Part shown: one piece after another, positions 9,623-17,623 of the stretch
Layout of the letters: each line of letters starts with the position of its first letter
Position numbering within the stretch: the first letter of the stretch is position 1
Assembly: GCA_028819435.1 (NCBI GenBank)
Contig: JAPPLK010000009.1
Span: forward strand, 1 to 40,620
Direction: 5' to 3'
Source of the DNA: Nitrospira sp.
GTDB lineage: Bacteria; Nitrospirota; Nitrospiria; Nitrospirales; UBA8639
Length of the DNA: 40,620 nucleotides
Notes under the pieces: generated by a model
Databases searched by the model: none
What the model was told of the DNA's origin: nothing
What the model saw: only the letters and a program-made list of their open reading frames with translations
Program-made: the position numbers and the translations under genes

Positions 9623-9712
9623 GAGCCCAATCATCTGTACGGAGTAAGCGGAACAGGGTATAAGGAAGATGAACGCTTGACACTTGACGTCTGGACGTCT
9701 ACCCTGTTTCTT

Positions 9713-10894
9713 ATGGAACGGCAAGAGTCTCGAAATTACCCCGGGCAAGTACGAGACGCCATCCTGCAAGTGTTGGCGTTGACATCGAAACCGTTACCCA
9801 TCAAGGAAATCGAAAACCGGGTGGAAAGAATTGCCGGCCCCACGCCCCCGTCGTCCATCCGGTCCTACTTGCGACTCAATACGCCTGATATCTTCGTTCG
9901 CGAGGAACGTGGCGTCTACAGTCTCCGGACGAACAGTTCTGGAGGCATTCAGCGGGAACTCGCTTATCCCCAACAATGGGAAGAACCGTTCGATTACGGA
10001 AAAACGACCTTGATAAACGCTGATTGTTTTGATTGGCTAGAAAGCCGGGAACCTAACAGTTTTCATGCGGTGGTCACCGATCCGCCTTACGGTCTATACG
10101 AATATACGCCGGCGCAGCAGCAAAAGCTGCGTAAAGGTAAAGGCGGCGTTTGGCGAATACCCCCGTCTTTCGACGGCAACAAGCGTTCACCCGTTCCCCG
10201 TTTTACGACCTTGACGCAACAACAATTGGAACAGTTGAGTTCGTTCTTCTTTGTATGGGGCAGGTTGCTGCTTCCGAAGCTTGTTCCCGGCGCACACGTC
10301 GTCGTTGCCTCCAATCCACTTGTTTCCTACATCGTGTCGAACGCCTTGGTGGACGCCGGTTTGGAAAGGAGGGGAGAAATCGTACGCCTGACCATGACCA
10401 TGCGCGGCGGCGACCGCCCCAAGGGCGCTCACCAAAGATTCGACGAAATCAGCGTCATGCCGCGCTCGATGTGGGAACCATGGATCGTTTGTAGAAAGCC
10501 CGTCGACGGCCGCGTGCAGGACAACCTGATGAAATGGAAAACCGGGGGATTTCGGCGACCCGTGCCGGATAAACCTTTTGGCGACGTGATCGCTTCAACG
10601 CCTACGAGAAAGAGTGAAAAATTACTTGCCTCTCATCCGAGCCTGAAACCACAGGCTTTCATGAGACAGGTTGTTCATGCCGCATTACCCCTGGGGGAAG
10701 GTGTGATTCTCGATCCATTCGCAGGTGCCGGTTCCACGCTGGCTGCGGCGGAGGCAGTAGGCTATGCGAGCGTCGGCGTGGAGAAGGACCCTGAATTTTT
10801 CGCTTTGGCCTGTGAGTCGATACCGAAACTTGCGGCACTCAAAACGAACGGCGGGGCTAGAGCCTGTATATCCAGCTATCCCGAAGTTTCCTGA
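9713..10894 (+). CDS. Orphan beta-class DNA amino-methyltransferase with N-terminal HTH
   Basis: S-adenosylmethionine-dependent N6-adenine or N4-cytosine DNA methyltransferase. Motif IV (DPPYG, 123-127) comes before a roughly 190-residue target-recognition region, then HPSLKPQ (308-314) and motif I (DPFAGAGST, 334-342); the order IV-TRD-I defines the beta class. Residues 10-72 look like a winged-helix domain of the HARE-HTH type (RDAILQVLALTSKPLPIKEIENRV... GVYSL). No restriction endonuclease gene lies on either side. The ATG at 9713 has no Shine-Dalgarno; a TTG at 9677 has AAGGA upstream. The TTGACA at 9677 with TACCCT at 9700 could instead be a promoter for a nearly leaderless mRNA. The target sequence cannot be read from the protein. 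Confidence 0.85.
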   Translation: MERQESRNYPGQVRDAILQVLALTSKPLPIKEIENRVERIAGPTPPSSIRSYLRLNTPDIFVREERGVYSLRTNSSGGIQRELAYPQQWEEPFDYGKTTLINADCFDWLESREPNSFHAVVTDPPYGLYEYTPAQQQKLRKGKGGVWRIPPSFDGNKRSPVPRFTTLTQQQLEQLSSFFFVWGRLLLPKLVPGAHVVVASNPLVSYIVSNALVDAGLERRGEIVRLTMTMRGGDRPKGAHQRFDEISVMPRSMWEPWIVCRKPVDGRVQDNLMKWKTGGFRRPVPDKPFGDVIASTPTRKSEKLLASHPSLKPQAFMRQVVHAALPLGEGVILDPFAGAGSTLAAAEAVGYASVGVEKDPEFFALACESIPKLAALKTNGGARACISSYPEVS

Positions 10895-11034: not shown

Positions 11035-11826
11035 TCAGGAGCAATAATGCCCGGGGCGGCGGTCTTTCAATAACTCGTTGTAGGGATTGATTGACTTGTT
11101 GCGGGCTTCGTTGACGTCGATCTCGACCACCGTGAGTTCGGGCGTATCGGCGGAAGCCCGGGAAAGAATGCGGCCTGCCGGTGAAACGACTTCACTTTTC
11201 CCGATGAAGGTCAGGGGCAGTTTGCCTCCCCTGGCTTCCAGGCCGATCCGGTTGGCCGTGATGCTGAAGACCCGGTTTTCCAGGGACCGCGTCACCATGG
11301 CATCGGGACAATGCGGCAGGACCAGGTTCGACGGATGGCACAGGATCTCCGCCCCCTGCAAGGCGAGGGTACGGGCGGATTCTGGGTAGTACCAGTCAAA
11401 GCAGATCATCACCCCGATGCGGGCCGGGCCGATGTCCCACACCCGAAACCCCGAGTCGCCCGGGCTGAAGAACAACGTTTCCTCACAAAATAAATGCGTC
11501 TTGCGGTAACTGCCCAGGAACCCCGAAGGCCCCACCACAATCGCCGAATTGTAGCACTGTCCCCCGGCCTGCTCAGGCAGCCCTACGACCAGATGCATCC
11601 GATGCCGGCGGGCCAGTTCCAGACAGGCCTGGGTGGTGGGGCCGTCCGGAACCCGTTCCGATAACTCGAAGACTTCCTCCCGGCTGACGAATTGATACCC
11701 GGAAAAGGCAAATTCCGGTAGGACGAGCAGTTCGCACTCTACCGAACCCAGGCGAGCCGCCACCTGCCCGATGTTGCGGTCCACTTGCCCGAATTCAGGC
11801 CGGGTCTGAAAATAGCCGACTTTCAC
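11035..11826 (-). CDS. Carbon-nitrogen hydrolase (nitrilase superfamily)
   Basis: Cytosolic hydrolase of amide or nitrile C-N bonds. The 263 residues form a single nitrilase domain with the complete catalytic triad E38 (LPEFAFSGY), K109 (YRKTHLF) and C142 (ICFDWYYPE). The sequence resembles amidases and omega-amidase or N-carbamoylputrescine amidase types, but I cannot decide the substrate. It lies downstream of the SmbP gene on the same strand, yet a strong terminator at 11858-11882 separates them, so it is probably its own transcription unit. Confidence 0.88.
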   Translation of the reverse strand: MKVGYFQTRPEFGQVDRNIGQVAARLGSVECELLVLPEFAFSGYQFVSREEVFELSERVPDGPTTQACLELARRHRMHLVVGLPEQAGGQCYNSAIVVGPSGFLGSYRKTHLFCEETLFFSPGDSGFRVWDIGPARIGVMICFDWYYPESARTLALQGAEILCHPSNLVLPHCPDAMVTRSLENRVFSITANRIGLEARGGKLPLTFIGKSEVVSPAGRILSRASADTPELTVVEIDVNEARNKSINPYNELLKDRRPGHYCS

Positions 11827-11844: not shown

Positions 11845-11887
11845 TCCTCAAAACAAAAACGGGCAGGAACTCCCTGCCCGTTTTTTT
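11845..11887 (-). terminator. Rho-independent terminator after the SmbP gene
   Basis: Perfect 10-bp stem AACGGGCAGG / CCTGCCCGTT (11858-11867, 11873-11882) with a 5-base loop. A run of T follows on the plus strand (to 11887), and on the minus strand a T-rich run (complement of 11848-11857) follows the stem, so it could work in both directions. It ends the leftward operon of 11914-15829. Confidence 0.9.
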
Positions 11888-11913: not shown

Positions 11914-12255
11914 TCAATGGACTTCCTTCAGATGCATGACGGCACTCTTCGCATGTTTGGTCGCCACTTCGGCATGACCCTGGCCACCATGCGCGATGGC
12001 TTCCTTCAATTCGCCGACGCCCTCATCAAGATGAGGGTTCTTGACTTCCTTCTGAGCCATTTCTGCATGGCTGAGCGCTTCCTGCGCATGGCTGACCACG
12101 GCATCGGCATGCCCCATGCCACCATGTTTGGCCGCTTCTTCCGCGTGCGTAATCGCTTCAGCCACGTGCGGATTCCCATCGGCAAACGCCGGTGCCGCCA
12201 TCAATACAAACAGCGCCGCCATCGCCAATACGGCAATGAAAAATTTCTTCGCCAT
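11914..12255 (-). CDS. smbP: Small His-rich periplasmic metal-binding protein, SmbP-like
   Basis: A 113-residue protein with a signal peptide (residues 1-25, cleavage after AFA) and a mature helical part with twelve His spaced along repeats such as HAEEAAKHGGMGHAD and HAQEALSHAEMA. This is the pattern of SmbP of Nitrosomonas europaea, a periplasmic four-helix protein that binds Cu and other divalent metals. A near-ideal ribosome-binding site AAGGAGG precedes the ATG. It is the last gene of a leftward run with the cytochrome c and sulfurtransferase genes, and a terminator follows. A role in storing or buffering copper or iron for the redox proteins of the operon is inference. Confidence 0.88.
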   Translation of the reverse strand: MAKKFFIAVLAMAALFVLMAAPAFADGNPHVAEAITHAEEAAKHGGMGHADAVVSHAQEALSHAEMAQKEVKNPHLDEGVGELKEAIAHGGQGHAEVATKHAKSAVMHLKEVH

Positions 12256-12269
12256 TCTACACCTCCTTG

Positions 12270-12584
12270 TTAATCTGACTTCCCTTCTACTGCCTCTTCA
12301 GGCGCTGCCTCCGCAGGTGCTGCCCCTGCAGGTGCCGCCTCTGCAGGCGCTGCCTCCGCAGGTGCTGCCCCTGCAGGTGCCGCCTCTGCAGGCGCTGCCT
12401 CCGCAGGTGCCGCCTCTGCAGGTGCTGCCTCTGCAGGCGCTGCCTCCGCAGGTGCTGCCTCCGCAGGTGCTGCCTTCTCAGGCGCTGCTTTCTCAGGCGC
12501 TTTCTCTTCGGAGCACCCCAACGTGGCTACCAATGCAACCACTGCCAAAATCAGTACGCCGCCAAAAAGAAAATTTTTCACCAT
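12270..12584 (-). CDS. Small Ala/Pro/Glu-repeat lipoprotein
   Basis: A 104-residue protein starting MVKNFLFGG, with a hydrophobic signal ending at LGC (a slightly weak lipobox; candidate lipidated Cys about residue 24). Almost all of the mature part is a tandem pentapeptide of the form PAEAA, about 13 units, ending EEAVEGKSD. It is probably an extended or helical spacer on the periplasmic face of a membrane. GAGGAG lies 7 bases before the ATG at 12584. It sits between the sulfurtransferase (71 bases upstream) and smbP (14 bases downstream), so it is part of the same transcription unit. Function unknown. Confidence 0.75.
   Translation of the reverse strand: MVKNFLFGGVLILAVVALVATLGCSEEKAPEKAAPEKAAPAEAAPAEAAPAEAAPAEAAPAEAAPAEAAPAGAAPAEAAPAEAAPAGAAPAEAAPEEAVEGKSD
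12296..12500 (-). repeat. 15-bp tandem repeat array inside the lipoprotein gene
   Basis: Degenerate 15-bp units built from GCAGGTGCTGCC/TCT-like blocks on the plus strand encode the PAEAA pentapeptides. Several stretches are identical over more than one unit, which suggests recent expansion by slippage. Every unit keeps the frame. Confidence 0.85.
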
Positions 12585-12655
12585 GTCAGATCTCCTCTCT
12601 AAAGGATTAGAGAAACCAATCTTTCCTCTGATTCTCTCATGCCTCCATGGTTTCT

Positions 12656-13522
12656 TCAAGACGCCTCTTCTTCTTTACCCGTGACCTGGTAGAGCAATTT
12701 CATGTCTTTTTCCGCGGGGGCCGCAAAATCCCGGCTCCACTCCCACCAGGATCCCGGATAATTTCGTACCCGCTCATAACCCGCCAACTTCAGTAAAAAA
12801 TACACCCACGCCGACCGAAGACCGCCCAAACAATAGGTAATCACTTCCTGTTGTTCGTTCATGCCGAACGCATGAAACATTTCCCGAAGCGCGGACACGG
12901 GCTTGACCGTGGCGTCCTGACGAAGAAACCCGTTCCAGGGGATATTGACCGAGGATGGGATATGCCCTGGTCTCGGCAACCCGTCGATTTCCTTGCCCGC
13001 GTATTCCTCCACGCTCCGGGCATCCACGATCACCGTGTCCCGATGGGGACTTTTGACCAATTTCTTCAATTCCTGTTTGTCGATCATCACGTCCGGCTGA
13101 ACTGAAGCCGTAAAATTGCCCGGCTTGAGACGAACCGGGTCATGTTCATAGCGTCGATGTTCGGACGTCCATTTGGGCCAGCCTCCGTCCAGGATCTTGA
13201 CACTTTTGTGTCCAAGATACTGCAACATCCAAAACATCCGGCCTTCGTCGCCCCAATTATCAAAGGGATTGGAATACACCACGACGTCGCTCGAATTATT
13301 GATACCCAAGGACTGCAACCGCTTCTCCAACCGGGCGACGTCGGGATCCAACAGGCCCTTGGCCGTGGCCTGGGGATCACTGTATTCGTGCCAGGTACTA
13401 TGCACGGCCCCGGGGACGTGCGAGGTGTACGCACCCTGGCCGCGCACGTCAATGATGACCAAATCCTCCCGGCCAAGATTAAGGGCCAGGGTTTCCGTAT
13501 CGATGAGGTACGTGCTCCACAT
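12656..13522 (-). CDS. Thiosulfate/3-mercaptopyruvate-type sulfurtransferase (two rhodanese domains)
   Basis: Transfers sulfane sulfur from a donor to a thiol or cyanide acceptor through a persulfide on cysteine. The 288 residues form two rhodanese domains: an inactive N-terminal one (about 5-125, with IIDVRGQGAYTSHVPGAVH and LDGGWPKW) and a catalytic C-terminal one (about 145-275) with VIVDARSVEEY and the active-site loop CLGGLRS, Cys231. That loop differs from the CRKGVT and CGSGVT loops of classical thiosulfate and mercaptopyruvate enzymes, so the donor is uncertain. There is no signal peptide, so it is probably cytoplasmic. It starts 3 bases after the cytochrome gene ends. Confidence 0.88.
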   Translation of the reverse strand: MWSTYLIDTETLALNLGREDLVIIDVRGQGAYTSHVPGAVHSTWHEYSDPQATAKGLLDPDVARLEKRLQSLGINNSSDVVVYSNPFDNWGDEGRMFWMLQYLGHKSVKILDGGWPKWTSEHRRYEHDPVRLKPGNFTASVQPDVMIDKQELKKLVKSPHRDTVIVDARSVEEYAGKEIDGLPRPGHIPSSVNIPWNGFLRQDATVKPVSALREMFHAFGMNEQQEVITYCLGGLRSAWVYFLLKLAGYERVRNYPGSWWEWSRDFAAPAEKDMKLLYQVTGKEEEAS

Positions 13523-13525
13523 AAA

Positions 13526-14881
13526 TCAACCTATCGTTAAAAGCTCCTGATGACCCCGCGCGGGGGCGGATTCCCCGGGATGAACCCTATCCTCCGGAGC
13601 GACACATCCCAACCGTGTCTCGACCGGCGTTTCCGCATGCAACGCCGTTTGCAATGTATCATTCAGCGGAAATTGCCGCGTATAGATCGTATACCGGTAC
13701 GGGTCATCTGACTGCAACCCATAGGTTTCCCGCAACATGGCATGCTGGCCATCGGTTAAAATATGATACCGGACCCGGGCTTCCACCACCAGGTCAGACC
13801 GATCTTCCGGCACGTCATAGAAAAACTCATAGTCACGGCTGGCCAACGGCAGCAAGCGGTTGTCATACACTTCCAGGATGACGGGTTGCCAGAGAATCCA
13901 GCGCCCCATCGTGTCGGTTTGCTCCGTGAGAATCCGGCCCGTCGAATCCTTGACGTAGAATTCCACGGTAAAGTGACGATCGGGATCGCCCGTGGGAATC
14001 TTGTGCCCGGCCCCGGCATTGATCAGGGTCAAGGTCATCCTGACGGTTTCGCCTTGCTTGGGGTTGGGAGGATCGGCCTTGACCTGGATCGCGACGGCCC
14101 GTTTAATCATGTCAGGATCATGCCCGCCTCGCCAGAGATGGCGGCGGCCCTGCCGAATCGGCCCGCCTTCGGCCACCGGACGGGAAACTTCCGGCATGTG
14201 ACAATGCTGGCACGTGAACCCTTGCTCCTTCATAAAAAACTCGCCTTCATATTCCGCGTAGGTGCCGCAGGGGCCTACGTTATAAAATTGAAAGGGCCCG
14301 GAGACCACGTTGTGACATCGGTAACAAATTGCCGTCGTGCGAAAGGCGGGATCATATTCCGTGGGGTGGGGAGCCGCCGAATCGTCAAACGGTCCCAGGA
14401 TCTTGCCGTCGCGCACGTGACACGCCGCGCAGGTGACGCCTTCCGCCTGATAGTCCACGTCGTAACGCGGGTTATCGACCTCGACCGCCTTTTCGACCCT
14501 GTTGTTCGGGATCTCTTTGATCAGCGTGGGTTGCTGATTTTCCAACGGCGTATGGCAGTTGAGGCAGACCCAGACGTACCCGTCTTTTTTCCAATAGGCC
14601 TGGAAAAACGGATCTCGATAGGCATGGGCATGAATACTGGTTTTCCATTCTTCATAAATCGCCTGGTGGCATTGCCCGCATGACTCCGCGCTCAACGAGT
14701 CCAACCCCGCCGGAACGTCCTGGAACGGAATGGCATGGGCATAGTCGTCGCGTAATCCAAAAATAACGGTGGGCCGAATCTCCGTATAAAAATAATAGAG
14801 CAGACCGGGAACGGCCACCAACAGACCCAGCAGTACAAGCCCCCGGCGTCTGCCTCGTCGTCTTCGTCGCGTGCTTGCCAT
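13526..14881 (-). CDS. Membrane-anchored pentaheme cytochrome c (c554-like)
   Basis: A 451-residue multiheme electron carrier. An Arg-rich start and one membrane helix (about 14-32) anchor it with the bulk in the periplasm. Five CXXCH heme sites are visible at C68-H72, C106-H110, C151-H155, C186-H190 and C224-H228, a spacing reminiscent of the cytochrome c554/c' family. The second half (about 245-450) has no heme and looks beta-rich, with GAGHKIPTGDPDRHFTVEFYV. It is flanked with 3-base gaps by the deacetylase-like gene and the sulfurtransferase gene, so cotranscription is nearly certain. In ammonia oxidisers c554 carries electrons from hydroxylamine; here the donor and acceptor are unknown. 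Confidence 0.88.
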   Translation of the reverse strand: MASTRRRRRGRRRGLVLLGLLVAVPGLLYYFYTEIRPTVIFGLRDDYAHAIPFQDVPAGLDSLSAESCGQCHQAIYEEWKTSIHAHAYRDPFFQAYWKKDGYVWVCLNCHTPLENQQPTLIKEIPNNRVEKAVEVDNPRYDVDYQAEGVTCAACHVRDGKILGPFDDSAAPHPTEYDPAFRTTAICYRCHNVVSGPFQFYNVGPCGTYAEYEGEFFMKEQGFTCQHCHMPEVSRPVAEGGPIRQGRRHLWRGGHDPDMIKRAVAIQVKADPPNPKQGETVRMTLTLINAGAGHKIPTGDPDRHFTVEFYVKDSTGRILTEQTDTMGRWILWQPVILEVYDNRLLPLASRDYEFFYDVPEDRSDLVVEARVRYHILTDGQHAMLRETYGLQSDDPYRYTIYTRQFPLNDTLQTALHAETPVETRLGCVAPEDRVHPGESAPARGHQELLTIG

Positions 14882-14884
14882 GAG

Positions 14885-15829
14885 TTACGCGTCCATCAAC
14901 GCCAGAATGTGCCGTTCAACCGAAGCGGCAAGCGCCCTCAGGTCGTAGCCGCCTTCCAGGCAAGCCACGATGCGACCCTGACAATGGGTGTGAGCAATGG
15001 ACCCCACAATGCGAGTCAGTTCGCCGTACCCTTCATCCGTGATCGCCATGCTTGCCAGGGGATCATCCCGGTGGGCATCGAATCCGGCCGAAATCAGCAC
15101 GAACTCGGGCTGAAACGCGGCCGCGGCCGGCACCAACACCCGATGGAAAATTTCCCGGTACTCATCCGTCCCCTGCCCGCCATACAGGGGCACGTTGATA
15201 GTCGCCCCTTCTCCCTTGCCCCGTCCGCGCTCCGTTTCCGCGCCGGTCCCGGGATAATGGGGATACTGGTGCGTGCTGAAAAACAGAACCGACGGATCGT
15301 CTTCAAACGCGTGTTGCGTGCCGTTGCCGTGATGCACGTCCCAATCCACGATCAGCACGCGCCGGAGACCATAACGTTCCTGGATATACCGGGCCGCAAC
15401 CGCCACGTTATTATACAGGCAAAACCCCATGGCGCGATTAGCCTCGGCATGGTGCCCCGGTGGACGAACCGCACAGAAGACCTGATCGACCTGGTTCGCC
15501 ATAATGGCATCAACGGCCGCCAGTGCTCCACCCGCGGCAAGATGCGCGGCAGGCAACGAGCCGGGCGAGAGCGAAGTGTCGAGATCGAGCGAGGCATAGC
15601 CCGTCCCCGGGGCCTTGTCTTCCAGCCGCTGCACGTAGACCGGATCATGAATGCGGGTAATCCACTCCGTCTCGGCGTTCCGCGGAGCGATCCGGGTCAA
15701 CTTGGACATCGTGCCGGTGGATTCGAGTCGAGACAGGATGGCTCGCAGCCGCTCCGGCGACTCCGGGTGCGACCGGCCCATATCATGTTCCAGATACGCC
15801 GGATGCGTTATAATTCCCACGCGGCCCAT
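14885..15829 (-). CDS. Histone-deacetylase-family zinc hydrolase (AcuC/HdaH-like)
   Basis: Zn-dependent amidohydrolase of the arginase/deacetylase fold; bacterial members remove acyl groups from lysines, polyamines or small metabolites. The 314 residues show the complete active site: H126-H127 (PPGHHAE), Zn ligands D164 and H166 (DWDVHHGNG) and D251 (SAGFDAHRDDP), and the transition-state Tyr295 (EGGYDL). I chose the ATG at 15829, which gives the standard MGRVGIITHP start and has GAAGGA upstream. It is the first gene of the leftward run with the pentaheme cytochrome, 3 bases before it. The substrate is unknown. Confidence 0.92.
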   Translation of the reverse strand: MGRVGIITHPAYLEHDMGRSHPESPERLRAILSRLESTGTMSKLTRIAPRNAETEWITRIHDPVYVQRLEDKAPGTGYASLDLDTSLSPGSLPAAHLAAGGALAAVDAIMANQVDQVFCAVRPPGHHAEANRAMGFCLYNNVAVAARYIQERYGLRRVLIVDWDVHHGNGTQHAFEDDPSVLFFSTHQYPHYPGTGAETERGRGKGEGATINVPLYGGQGTDEYREIFHRVLVPAAAAFQPEFVLISAGFDAHRDDPLASMAITDEGYGELTRIVGSIAHTHCQGRIVACLEGGYDLRALAASVERHILALMDA

Positions 15830-16291
15830 TAAACAGTCCTTCGGCCAGATGTTCTTATACGCTCTTGCTTTCAGGAAAGAGAATTTACCCTTACAGGCAT
15901 CCCGCCCGCGCGCCATGCCATGAAAACAAGAACACTCCAGATCTTTTCCTCCTCTTTGTAAGGGGAGGATAGGTGAGGTAGAGGCACAATCTTTGTAGCC
16001 GCGCCATCTTATGGCGCTTCTTCTTGGCCGCATGAGACGCGGCAGCTACAATAGTTTCTACCTCCCCTCGCCCCTTCTTACAAAGGAGGGGAACGGGATG
16101 GACAGTTTGAGTGAGGTTTTGTTCACACATGTGACAAACTCGTGGCCTCATCGGTTCATTTTCATGCCAGGATATCAGAGGTAAAAACGGGAACCTGATC
16201 GTAGCACAGGGTCCGTGGTTAGACAACGCGAAGACCGCTCTGCTACAGTCCGCGAACAAGAAGCACTCCAAGACCATTTACACACGTTCAA
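15830..16291. other. Intergenic region with a REPIN-like inverted repeat pair
   Basis: There is no gene in this 460-base stretch. It holds two G-rich hairpins facing each other (15947-15983 and 16057-16092). Between them lie a second, imperfect inverted repeat beginning TGTAGC on each strand (about 15992 and 16050) and a short palindrome GCGCCATCTTATGGCGC. The promoter of the leftward operon should lie at the left end; TATAAG (on the minus strand, near 15857) is a possible -10, but no good -35 is visible. Confidence 0.6.
15947..16092. repeat. Head-to-head pair of G-rich hairpins (REPIN-like)
   Basis: The left unit is CCTCCTCTT-TGT-AAGGGGAGG followed by the tail ATAGGTGAGGTAGAGG. The right unit is the mirror image, tail CTACCTCCCCTCG then CCCCTTCTT-ACA-AAGGAGGGG. 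Tails point inward. A comparable pair occurs at 36057-36160, and single units at 32800 and 38391. Confidence 0.7.
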
Positions 16292-16448: not shown

Positions 16449-16778
16449 ATGGCAGATCCCAAGATCGAGAAGTTCAAGAAAGTCCTGCAAATGGATCCCA
16501 ATGACGAGACCCTCTGGTTCGGACTGGGCAAGGCCTACATGGGGGATGAAAATTGGGAAGAAGCCGTTTCCGCCCTGGAAAGCTGCCTCAAGGTGAAACC
16601 CACCTACTCCGCGGCCATCCTGGCGTTGGCGCAATCACTCAAACACGCCAACCAACCGGAGAAATGCCGCACGGTCTGCGCACAAGGCATCGACGTCGCC
16701 ACGGCCAACGGCGACCTGCTCGTGATCAAAAACCTCGAAGAACTCCGGGATTCGCTCCCTCAAGCCTCTTCTGACTAA
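16449..16778 (+). CDS. Small TPR-repeat protein
   Basis: A 109-residue cytosolic protein with two to three tetratricopeptide helix pairs: KVLQMDPNDETLWFGLGKAYMGDENWEEAVSALE, then CLKVKPTYSAAILALAQSLKHANQPEKCRTVCAQGIDVA. TPRs mediate protein-protein contacts; the partner is unknown. AGGAAA lies upstream of the ATG, just outside the mobile repeat. It stands alone and converges with vapC. A 9-bp inverted repeat CCCGGCAGC/GCTGCCGGG (16791-16799, 16829-16837; 29-base loop, no T-run) lies between the two and might be a weak terminator. Confidence 0.85.
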   Translation: MADPKIEKFKKVLQMDPNDETLWFGLGKAYMGDENWEEAVSALESCLKVKPTYSAAILALAQSLKHANQPEKCRTVCAQGIDVATANGDLLVIKNLEELRDSLPQASSD

Positions 16779-16872: not shown

Positions 16873-17295
16873 TCAAGGATCGCGCGGCATCCAATTTTCA
16901 ACCTTCAGGCGCGGGGCCTTGCTGAAATGTTTGACGTTGTTCGTGACGACAATGGCGCCCCGACTCAACGCGTGCCCGGCAATCATGGTGTCGTTCAGCC
17001 CAATAGGCGAGCCTTTCTTATATAAATACGCCTGCAACGTGGCGAAAGTCTCCGCGGCCCCGGCATCCCATGGCAAGACGTCATCCAGGCGTTCAACGAA
17101 CTCGGATACCAGTTTCCGGTGTTTCCGTTTATTGTCGGAACGTTCCGCCCCAAGCAGCAATTCGGCATACGTAATGGACGAAATCGTCAGGCTGTGTCCT
17201 TCCCCTGCCGTTACCTGCATGGACGCCAATAGCGACTCGGGACGTCTTCTGATCACGTAACTGCACGTATCCGTGTCCAACACGTACAAATTCAA
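16873..17295 (-). CDS. vapC: PIN-domain ribonuclease toxin VapC
   Basis: Toxin of a type II toxin-antitoxin pair; a Mg-dependent RNase that in known cases cuts tRNA or rRNA. The 140 residues have the PIN acidic residues D7 (VLDTDT), E45 (TYAELLLG) and D102 (GLNDTMIAGHAL), and the C-terminal TNNVKHF motif. The ATG overlaps the antitoxin stop by 4 bases (ATGA), the standard arrangement. It looks intact. Confidence 0.93.
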   Translation of the reverse strand: MNLYVLDTDTCSYVIRRRPESLLASMQVTAGEGHSLTISSITYAELLLGAERSDNKRKHRKLVSEFVERLDDVLPWDAGAAETFATLQAYLYKKGSPIGLNDTMIAGHALSRGAIVVTNNVKHFSKAPRLKVENWMPRDP

Positions 17296-17519
17296 AAATT
17301 CACTCTCTTGTCATCCAGCAGTGAAGGGCGCACCGGCATGAAATCATCATCGGCGGCGGGCAGGGCGGCATACGAAACCCAGCTTTTTCTGAGGGGAAGC
17401 AACACAACGGCGTTGCCTTCCTTGCGGATGCTGATTTCGCTGACGCCTTCAAACGCGAATTGTTTGGGCAGCCTGACCGCCTGGTTTTTCCCGTTCCTGA
17501 ACAATTTGGCCGTTCTCAT
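17292..17519 (-). CDS. vapB: VapB antitoxin, AbrB/SpoVT type
   Basis: A 75-residue antitoxin. The N-terminal swapped-hairpin DNA-binding domain is visible as MRTAKLFRNGKNQAVRLPKQFAFEGVSEISIRKEGNAVVL-type sequence (about 1-45); the C-terminal tail (SYAALPAADDDFMPVRPSLLDDKRVNF) would wrap around and neutralise VapC. I chose the ATG at 17519 because it has GAGGTGAG upstream and starts the conserved domain; the open frame continues upstream through the promoter. It is expected to repress its own promoter together with VapC. Confidence 0.92.
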   Translation of the reverse strand: MRTAKLFRNGKNQAVRLPKQFAFEGVSEISIRKEGNAVVLLPLRKSWVSYAALPAADDDFMPVRPSLLDDKRVNF

Positions 17520-17543
17520 CGCACTCACCTCTATCGGAATGAT

Positions 17544-17584
17544 TGGACTTGGTCCAGTGTAAGTTCCATTGAGGCATATGTCAA
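17544..17584 (-). promoter_or_regulatory. vapBC promoter and operator
   Basis: On the minus strand TTGACA (17584-17579), a 17-base spacer and TACACT (17561-17556) form a good sigma-70 promoter. Immediately downstream and touching the -10 is the inverted repeat TGGAC-CAA-GTCCA (17556-17544), in the position expected for a VapBC operator. The -35 matches consensus at all six bases. Confidence 0.8.
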
Positions 17585-17623
17585 GCCTATGCCTTGACGC
17601 CAAGTGCGCCGCGCAGGCCGGGG

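Follow-up and report, generated by a model that had tools for sequence, protein, structure and literature searches.

Organization of the locus

The window is the whole analysed stretch of 40,620 nucleotides from Nitrospira sp. Five genes are found on its minus strand at positions 11914–15829, with gaps of 3, 3, 71 and 14 bases between them. Translation of the minus strand reproduces the open reading frames, the strand and all four gaps of the five-gene layout proposed in a first-pass annotation. The first gene, hdac (14885–15829), encodes a 314 aa Zn deacylase of the HDAC superfamily. It is followed after 3 bases by cyt (13526–14881), which encodes a 451 aa pentaheme c-type cytochrome, and after another 3 bases by the gene of a 288 aa tandem-domain rhodanese/sulfurtransferase (12656–13522). 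A 104 aa lipoprotein with a PAEAA repeat (12270–12584, start at 12584) lies 71 bases beyond the rhodanese gene, and smbP (11914–12255, 113 aa) is found 14 bases further on. Downstream of smbP and on the same strand are a putative hairpin terminator (11855–11885) and an open reading frame for a 263 aa nitrilase-superfamily hydrolase (11035–11826), assigned by Pfam and by synteny. On the other side a TPR protein gene (16449–16778, plus strand), also assigned by Pfam and synteny, is the constant, divergent upstream neighbour of hdac.

Comparison with related genomes alters the membership of the block. The hdac, cyt, rhodanese and smbP genes all belong to a conserved block, but the lipoprotein is an accessory gene and the nitrilase gene, left out of the earlier layout, is a sixth conserved member. 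The proposed five-gene module does not hold as such, as the lipoprotein is patchy within the genus and the cytochrome has been lost or relocated in some Nitrospira.

Other elements are present around the block. An inverted pair with 37-base arms is situated upstream of hdac at 15946–16093; about 60 copies akin to these arms, often paired and resembling REPIN/MITE families, are found in this genome. A lone N6/N4 DNA methyltransferase gene (9677–10894) adjoins the block only in the genus of the window. A VapC-like toxin gene with a small antitoxin-like gene (16873–17603) is shared with only some of the sister genomes. Scanning the window for Rfam families and tRNA genes gave no matches.

The pentaheme cytochrome

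The cytochrome carries five CXXCH motifs, as stated in the first-pass annotation, and all five are invariant in 51 sequences. By inspection and from a model helix at positions 2–35 it has an N-terminal anchor, apparently uncleaved, and the protein is predicted to be anchored in the inner membrane. A first model, made from 35 close sequences, gave a pLDDT of 45; addition of divergent relatives improved it, and the AlphaFold2 model from 51 diverse sequences has a pLDDT of 79.5. The model shows a C-terminal Ig-like domain. Among the fold matches listed, the best and the sole near-full-length match is pentaheme cytochrome c552 of Thermochromatium tepidum (PDB 5ze8; Foldseek E-value = 7.1e-14), and VIA-align superposes 298 residues of the two at 3.4 Å with Z = 19.1. 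The sequence profile also matches MccSep (E-value = 4e-9); the absence of MccSep from the listed fold matches carries no weight either way.

Histidines 84, 172, 248, 254 and 293 lie outside the heme motifs and are invariant in the 51 sequences. These five would suffice for bis-His ligation at all five hemes, with individual assignments not possible; bis-His ligation throughout would favour electron transfer over catalysis. A non-heme cysteine, Cys205, is also invariant and by alignment is common to MccSep and c552.

All 51 members match the ExtKL family model NF040886 (best E-value = 4.9e-21). However, the window cytochrome scores 65.2 bits against a curated cut-off of 250, and assignment as ExtKL was rejected on this score. 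NrfA, the ammonia-forming nitrite reductase, was also rejected, as the CXXCK motif is absent and all five motifs are CXXCH. The Sec325 site of MccSep aligns with Asp299 of the window cytochrome, and those flagged TGA codons of relatives that were inspected simply end the reading frame. The modelled fold places the cytochrome among the relatives of the c552/ExtKL/MccSep pentaheme family, here as a protein with a membrane anchor and without selenocysteine. Elsewhere in this genome (contig C95, 3346–5235; locus L070) there are two adjacent multiheme cytochromes with about 26% identity to that of the window, and this pair is found in most relatives.

Similarities to characterized members of the family are partial. 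As in c552, a heme-rich N-terminal part and a C-terminal beta domain are combined in one fold, and His 84, 248, 254 and 293 and Cys205 are conserved in the alignment. The two proteins share only 25% identity, however, and the window cytochrome has an apparently uncleaved anchor and a fixed neighbourhood of its own. The PHC proteins of cable bacteria also combine a pentaheme domain with an Ig-like domain; ExtKL and c552 have been grouped with the PHC family, a role in sulfur metabolism has been suggested for c552 and an open heme has been proposed for the PHCs of cable bacteria (PMC11976967). Unlike PHC, the window cytochrome is apparently membrane-anchored, has a fixed Nitrospirales neighbourhood and possesses enough invariant histidines for bis-His ligation at all hemes.

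The other gene products

The deacetylase-like, rhodanese and SmbP identities given in the earlier reading are borne out by Pfam matches. The hdac product matches PF00850 (E-value = 5.9e-106, 354.6 bits), which places it in the HDAC superfamily, and the motifs PPGHHA, D-x-D-x-H, GFD and EGGY are kept in 130–131 of 131 loci. With its Zn-site and catalytic motifs kept, the deacylase is predicted to be active, and cytosolic. The nearest solved structures are HDAC6 domains and the bacterial HDAC 5ji5.

The rhodanese matches PF00581 in two stretches (E-value = 8.6e-33) and has the two domains of its superfamily, with the catalytic cysteine (C231, invariant) in the second. The atypical CLGGLRS loop reported at this cysteine is real, and takes the form C[LT]GG[VLI]R[SA] in the family (133 loci). 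We take this loop to be neither of the usual thiosulfate:cyanide nor of the mercaptopyruvate rhodanese type. The score of 110.9 bits against the 3-mercaptopyruvate sulfurtransferase model NF008557 is below the cut-off of 250. The ExtH model NF040901 matches all members, but the window protein gives only 43.8 bits against a cut-off of 200. Thus cytochrome and rhodanese appear to resemble ExtKL and ExtH distantly, and both fall short of the curated scores. No signal peptide is seen in the rhodanese by inspection, and a cytosolic location is predicted.

SmbP matches PF16785 (E-value = 4e-28, 98.1 bits, gathering score 29) and its gene is the sole copy found in this genome. SmbP of Nitrosomonas europaea, a periplasmic, His-rich protein of the same Pfam SMBP family, binds Ni, Cu, Zn and Fe(III) (PMC7137794), and by analogy the window protein would be a periplasmic His-rich small metal-binding protein. 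It differs from the N. europaea case in that its gene is situated behind a rhodanese gene and has a promoter-like site of its own. The nitrilase-superfamily protein matches PF00795 (E-value = 2.1e-47). The PAEAA repeat of the lipoprotein was correctly noticed and is encoded by a 15-bp tandem array of 13.3 copies. The lipoprotein is found in only part of the genus of the window, with a varying number of repeats and almost none in one relative.

Probable transcription units

Over about 115 loci the median gap is 3 bases between hdac and cyt and 20 bases between cyt and the rhodanese gene, and gaps within this trio are mostly below 30 bases, a packing consistent with one transcription unit. A search upstream of hdac revealed no conserved promoter.

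At the end of the rhodanese gene a sigma70-like site is found (12631–12659, minus strand), with a −35 box TTGAAG at 12659–12654, a 17-bp spacer and a −10 box GAGAAT at 12636–12631. The −35 box and the stop codon of the rhodanese gene overlap. Among 102 distinct rhodanese genes, 97 terminate in T-TGA, the full TTGACA is present in 56 and a 17-bp spacer to a −10-like hexamer is the best in 80, although, with related loci, these figures do not count independent events. No T-TGA/−10-like pattern of this sort is seen where the other four genes end. Judged from sequence, smbP thus probably has its own sigma70-like promoter, located where the rhodanese gene ends. The last rhodanese residue before the stop is a near-invariant serine among relatives, and overlap with the promoter-like site could account for this.

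A strong hairpin at 11855–11885 (stem AAAAACGGGCAGG/CCTGCCCGTTTTT) lies 3′ of smbP and before the nitrilase gene. A consensus scan did not list it. The hairpin folds in relatives too, is present between smbP and the nitrilase gene in nearly all loci and displays compensating base changes; N. moscoviensis has an unrelated hairpin at the same position. The single terminator noted after the last gene is thus present, with its position kept in relatives. Behind this putative terminator the window has hardly any space for a promoter of the nitrilase gene alone.

The proposal of a single transcript stands in part: hdac, cyt and rhodanese follow one another closely in almost every locus, but smbP has a conserved promoter-like site of its own. 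The layout is probably one of an hdac-cyt-rhodanese unit and a separate smbP unit, which in the window includes the lipoprotein gene.

Conservation across Nitrospirales

The order TPR (divergent), hdac, cyt, rhodanese, smbP, nitrilase recurs across Nitrospirales. In the family of the window (ten genera), the cytochrome is present in all genomes of at least 95% completeness, with the same block around it. The same order is found in the best 80 loci of named Nitrospirota genomes, except for pieces missing at contig ends, and these include Candidatus N. defluvii, N. moscoviensis and the Rifle clade A and B comammox genomes. Of 161 near-complete Nitrospirales genomes, 155 contain the rhodanese and 147 the cytochrome. 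The order is retained even where protein identity has fallen to about 60%, and the nitrilase gene is a constant member in the compared loci. Methyltransferase, vapC and P450 genes that neighbour the block in the window are not retained beside it in relatives. The co-occurrence that the first-pass annotation proposed to look for across Nitrospirota is thus strongly in evidence, with the order shared across genera, and a chance arrangement is ruled out by this conservation. Among open-licence papers, no description of a Nitrospira locus of this kind was found.

The cytochrome is the variable member of the block in Nitrospiraceae. In 119 near-complete genomes of this family it adjoins the rhodanese gene in 80, is elsewhere or on another contig in 26 (some of which may be contig breaks) and is not found in nine; in the remaining four it is within 6 kb, or the rhodanese is not found. 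Where the cytochrome is absent or has moved, the rhodanese gene and mostly hdac, smbP and the nitrilase gene are still together, and in loci without it these four are closed up around the gap. Four relocated copies were tested; they group as a single clade that arises from within the in-cluster copies. Among the relocated copies (L181–L184, L187 and L188), that of L181 is situated beside two small membrane proteins, which are not its usual neighbours. In one divergent family (f4) only the hdac-cyt-rhodanese trio remains together, and outside Nitrospirales the cytochrome is found alone, without these neighbours.

Adjacency of cytochrome and rhodanese genes is rarer in AMO-positive Nitrospiraceae (22 of 42 genomes) than in the others (58 of 77), and AMO-positive (comammox) genomes of genus g11 have more often lost or moved the cytochrome, a pattern confounded by descent. 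No link with AMO is claimed, as the effect lies nearly all in one genus and the tested relocated copies are one clade.

Several Nitrospira have thus lost or moved the cytochrome and kept the rest, which makes it separable. A single obligate pathway of all the genes is unlikely, since the cytochrome can go without disturbing the others.

Possible function of the neighbourhood

From its anatomy, fold family, conservation and promoter-like and terminator-like sites, we infer substrates, electron partners and a coordinated function of the block as follows. The first unit would supply two cytosolic proteins, the Zn deacylase and the tandem rhodanese, together with the pentaheme cytochrome, which has the c552/ExtKL/MccSep fold and would be fixed to the inner membrane on its outer side. 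The second, read from the promoter in the rhodanese end to the terminator, would supply SmbP and, in the window, the inserted lipoprotein; the nitrilase gene lies just beyond. The cytochrome may connect electron carriers of the membrane or periplasm with a sulfur or chalcogen species of the periplasm or with a redox partner, and the rhodanese may handle the matching sulfane sulfur in the cytosol. Direct exchange between the two is unlikely, as one is predicted to face the periplasm and the other the cytosol. SmbP would buffer periplasmic copper, nickel, zinc or iron, and the deacylase and nitrilase could act on small amides or acylated proteins. The earlier reading left a choice between sulfur and nitrogen compounds; the relatives of the cytochrome (ExtKL and c552) and the adjoining rhodanese weakly favour sulfur or chalcogen. 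A periplasmic electron-transfer cytochrome linked to sulfur or chalcogen via the rhodanese, with SmbP as a nearby, separately driven metal buffer, is proposed with moderate confidence.

The genes may instead be neighbours without a joint function, which we regard as possible but short of an even chance. Here deacylation, electron transfer, sulfur transfer, metal buffering and amide hydrolysis would be separate housekeeping jobs, their order inherited in a slowly rearranging lineage. Loss or relocation of the cytochrome without breaking the rest, the promoter-like site of smbP and the harmless insertion of the lipoprotein all fit this. But the order survives at about 60% protein identity while the methyltransferase, vapC and P450 neighbours do not stay, and the trio with gaps mostly below 30 bases is exactly what remains in family f4.

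Two more specific chemistries can be considered. In Geobacter, extKL and extH are found in one cluster (extHIJKLMNOPQS) tied to selenite/tellurite reduction (PMC5877670), and an ExtKL-type cytochrome adjoining a rhodanese, as well as membership of the pentaheme family, is common to that cluster and the Nitrospira block. A selenocysteine-free, Ext-like module for reduction or detoxification of chalcogen oxyanions is nevertheless improbable: scores are far under the curated cut-offs (65 versus 250; 44 versus 200), the ExtH match is mostly generic rhodanese and the selenocysteine of MccSep is replaced by Asp299. Furthermore, the Nitrospira rhodanese is a cytosolic tandem protein, and no Ext porin, Rieske protein, partner cytochromes or other Ext genes are found alongside the block. 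Cyanide or nitrile and thiocyanate handling would have the rhodanese convert cyanide to thiocyanate, the nitrilase hydrolyse nitriles and the cytochrome support respiration under stress. The constancy of both enzymes in the neighbourhood and the established chemistry of their families agree with this, but nitrilase-superfamily proteins are mostly amidases, the rhodanese loop appears to be of neither usual type with a score below the mercaptopyruvate cut-off, and SmbP and the deacylase are left without explanation; we consider it very improbable.

The reading preferred here, of a core Nitrospirales neighbourhood with two transcription units, a downstream gene and a redox, sulfur-or-chalcogen and metal mechanism, stands about an even chance of being right. 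A narrower version seems rather unlikely in all its details: a Nitrospirales-specific sulfane-sulfur/chalcogen redox module of a selenocysteine-free, anchored ExtKL-kind cytochrome, a cytosolic C[LT]GG[VLI]R rhodanese and the deacylase, with a metal buffer adjacent under a separate promoter and the cytochrome dispensable in part of Nitrospira. In either version the genes need not form one pathway, because where the cytochrome is absent or moved the rhodanese and mostly its other neighbours stay together.

Nitrospira are widespread nitrite oxidisers and include the comammox organisms. Many conserved electron-transfer components of their envelope still have no assigned role. A pentaheme cytochrome found in 147 of 161 near-complete genomes, mostly fixed beside a sulfurtransferase and a metal-binding protein, offers experiments a concrete target in the cultured species N. 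moscoviensis and N. defluvii, and natural strains that lack the cytochrome alone offer a ready comparison. The neighbourhood looks like a core, unstudied part of electron, sulfur and metal handling in these nitrifiers.
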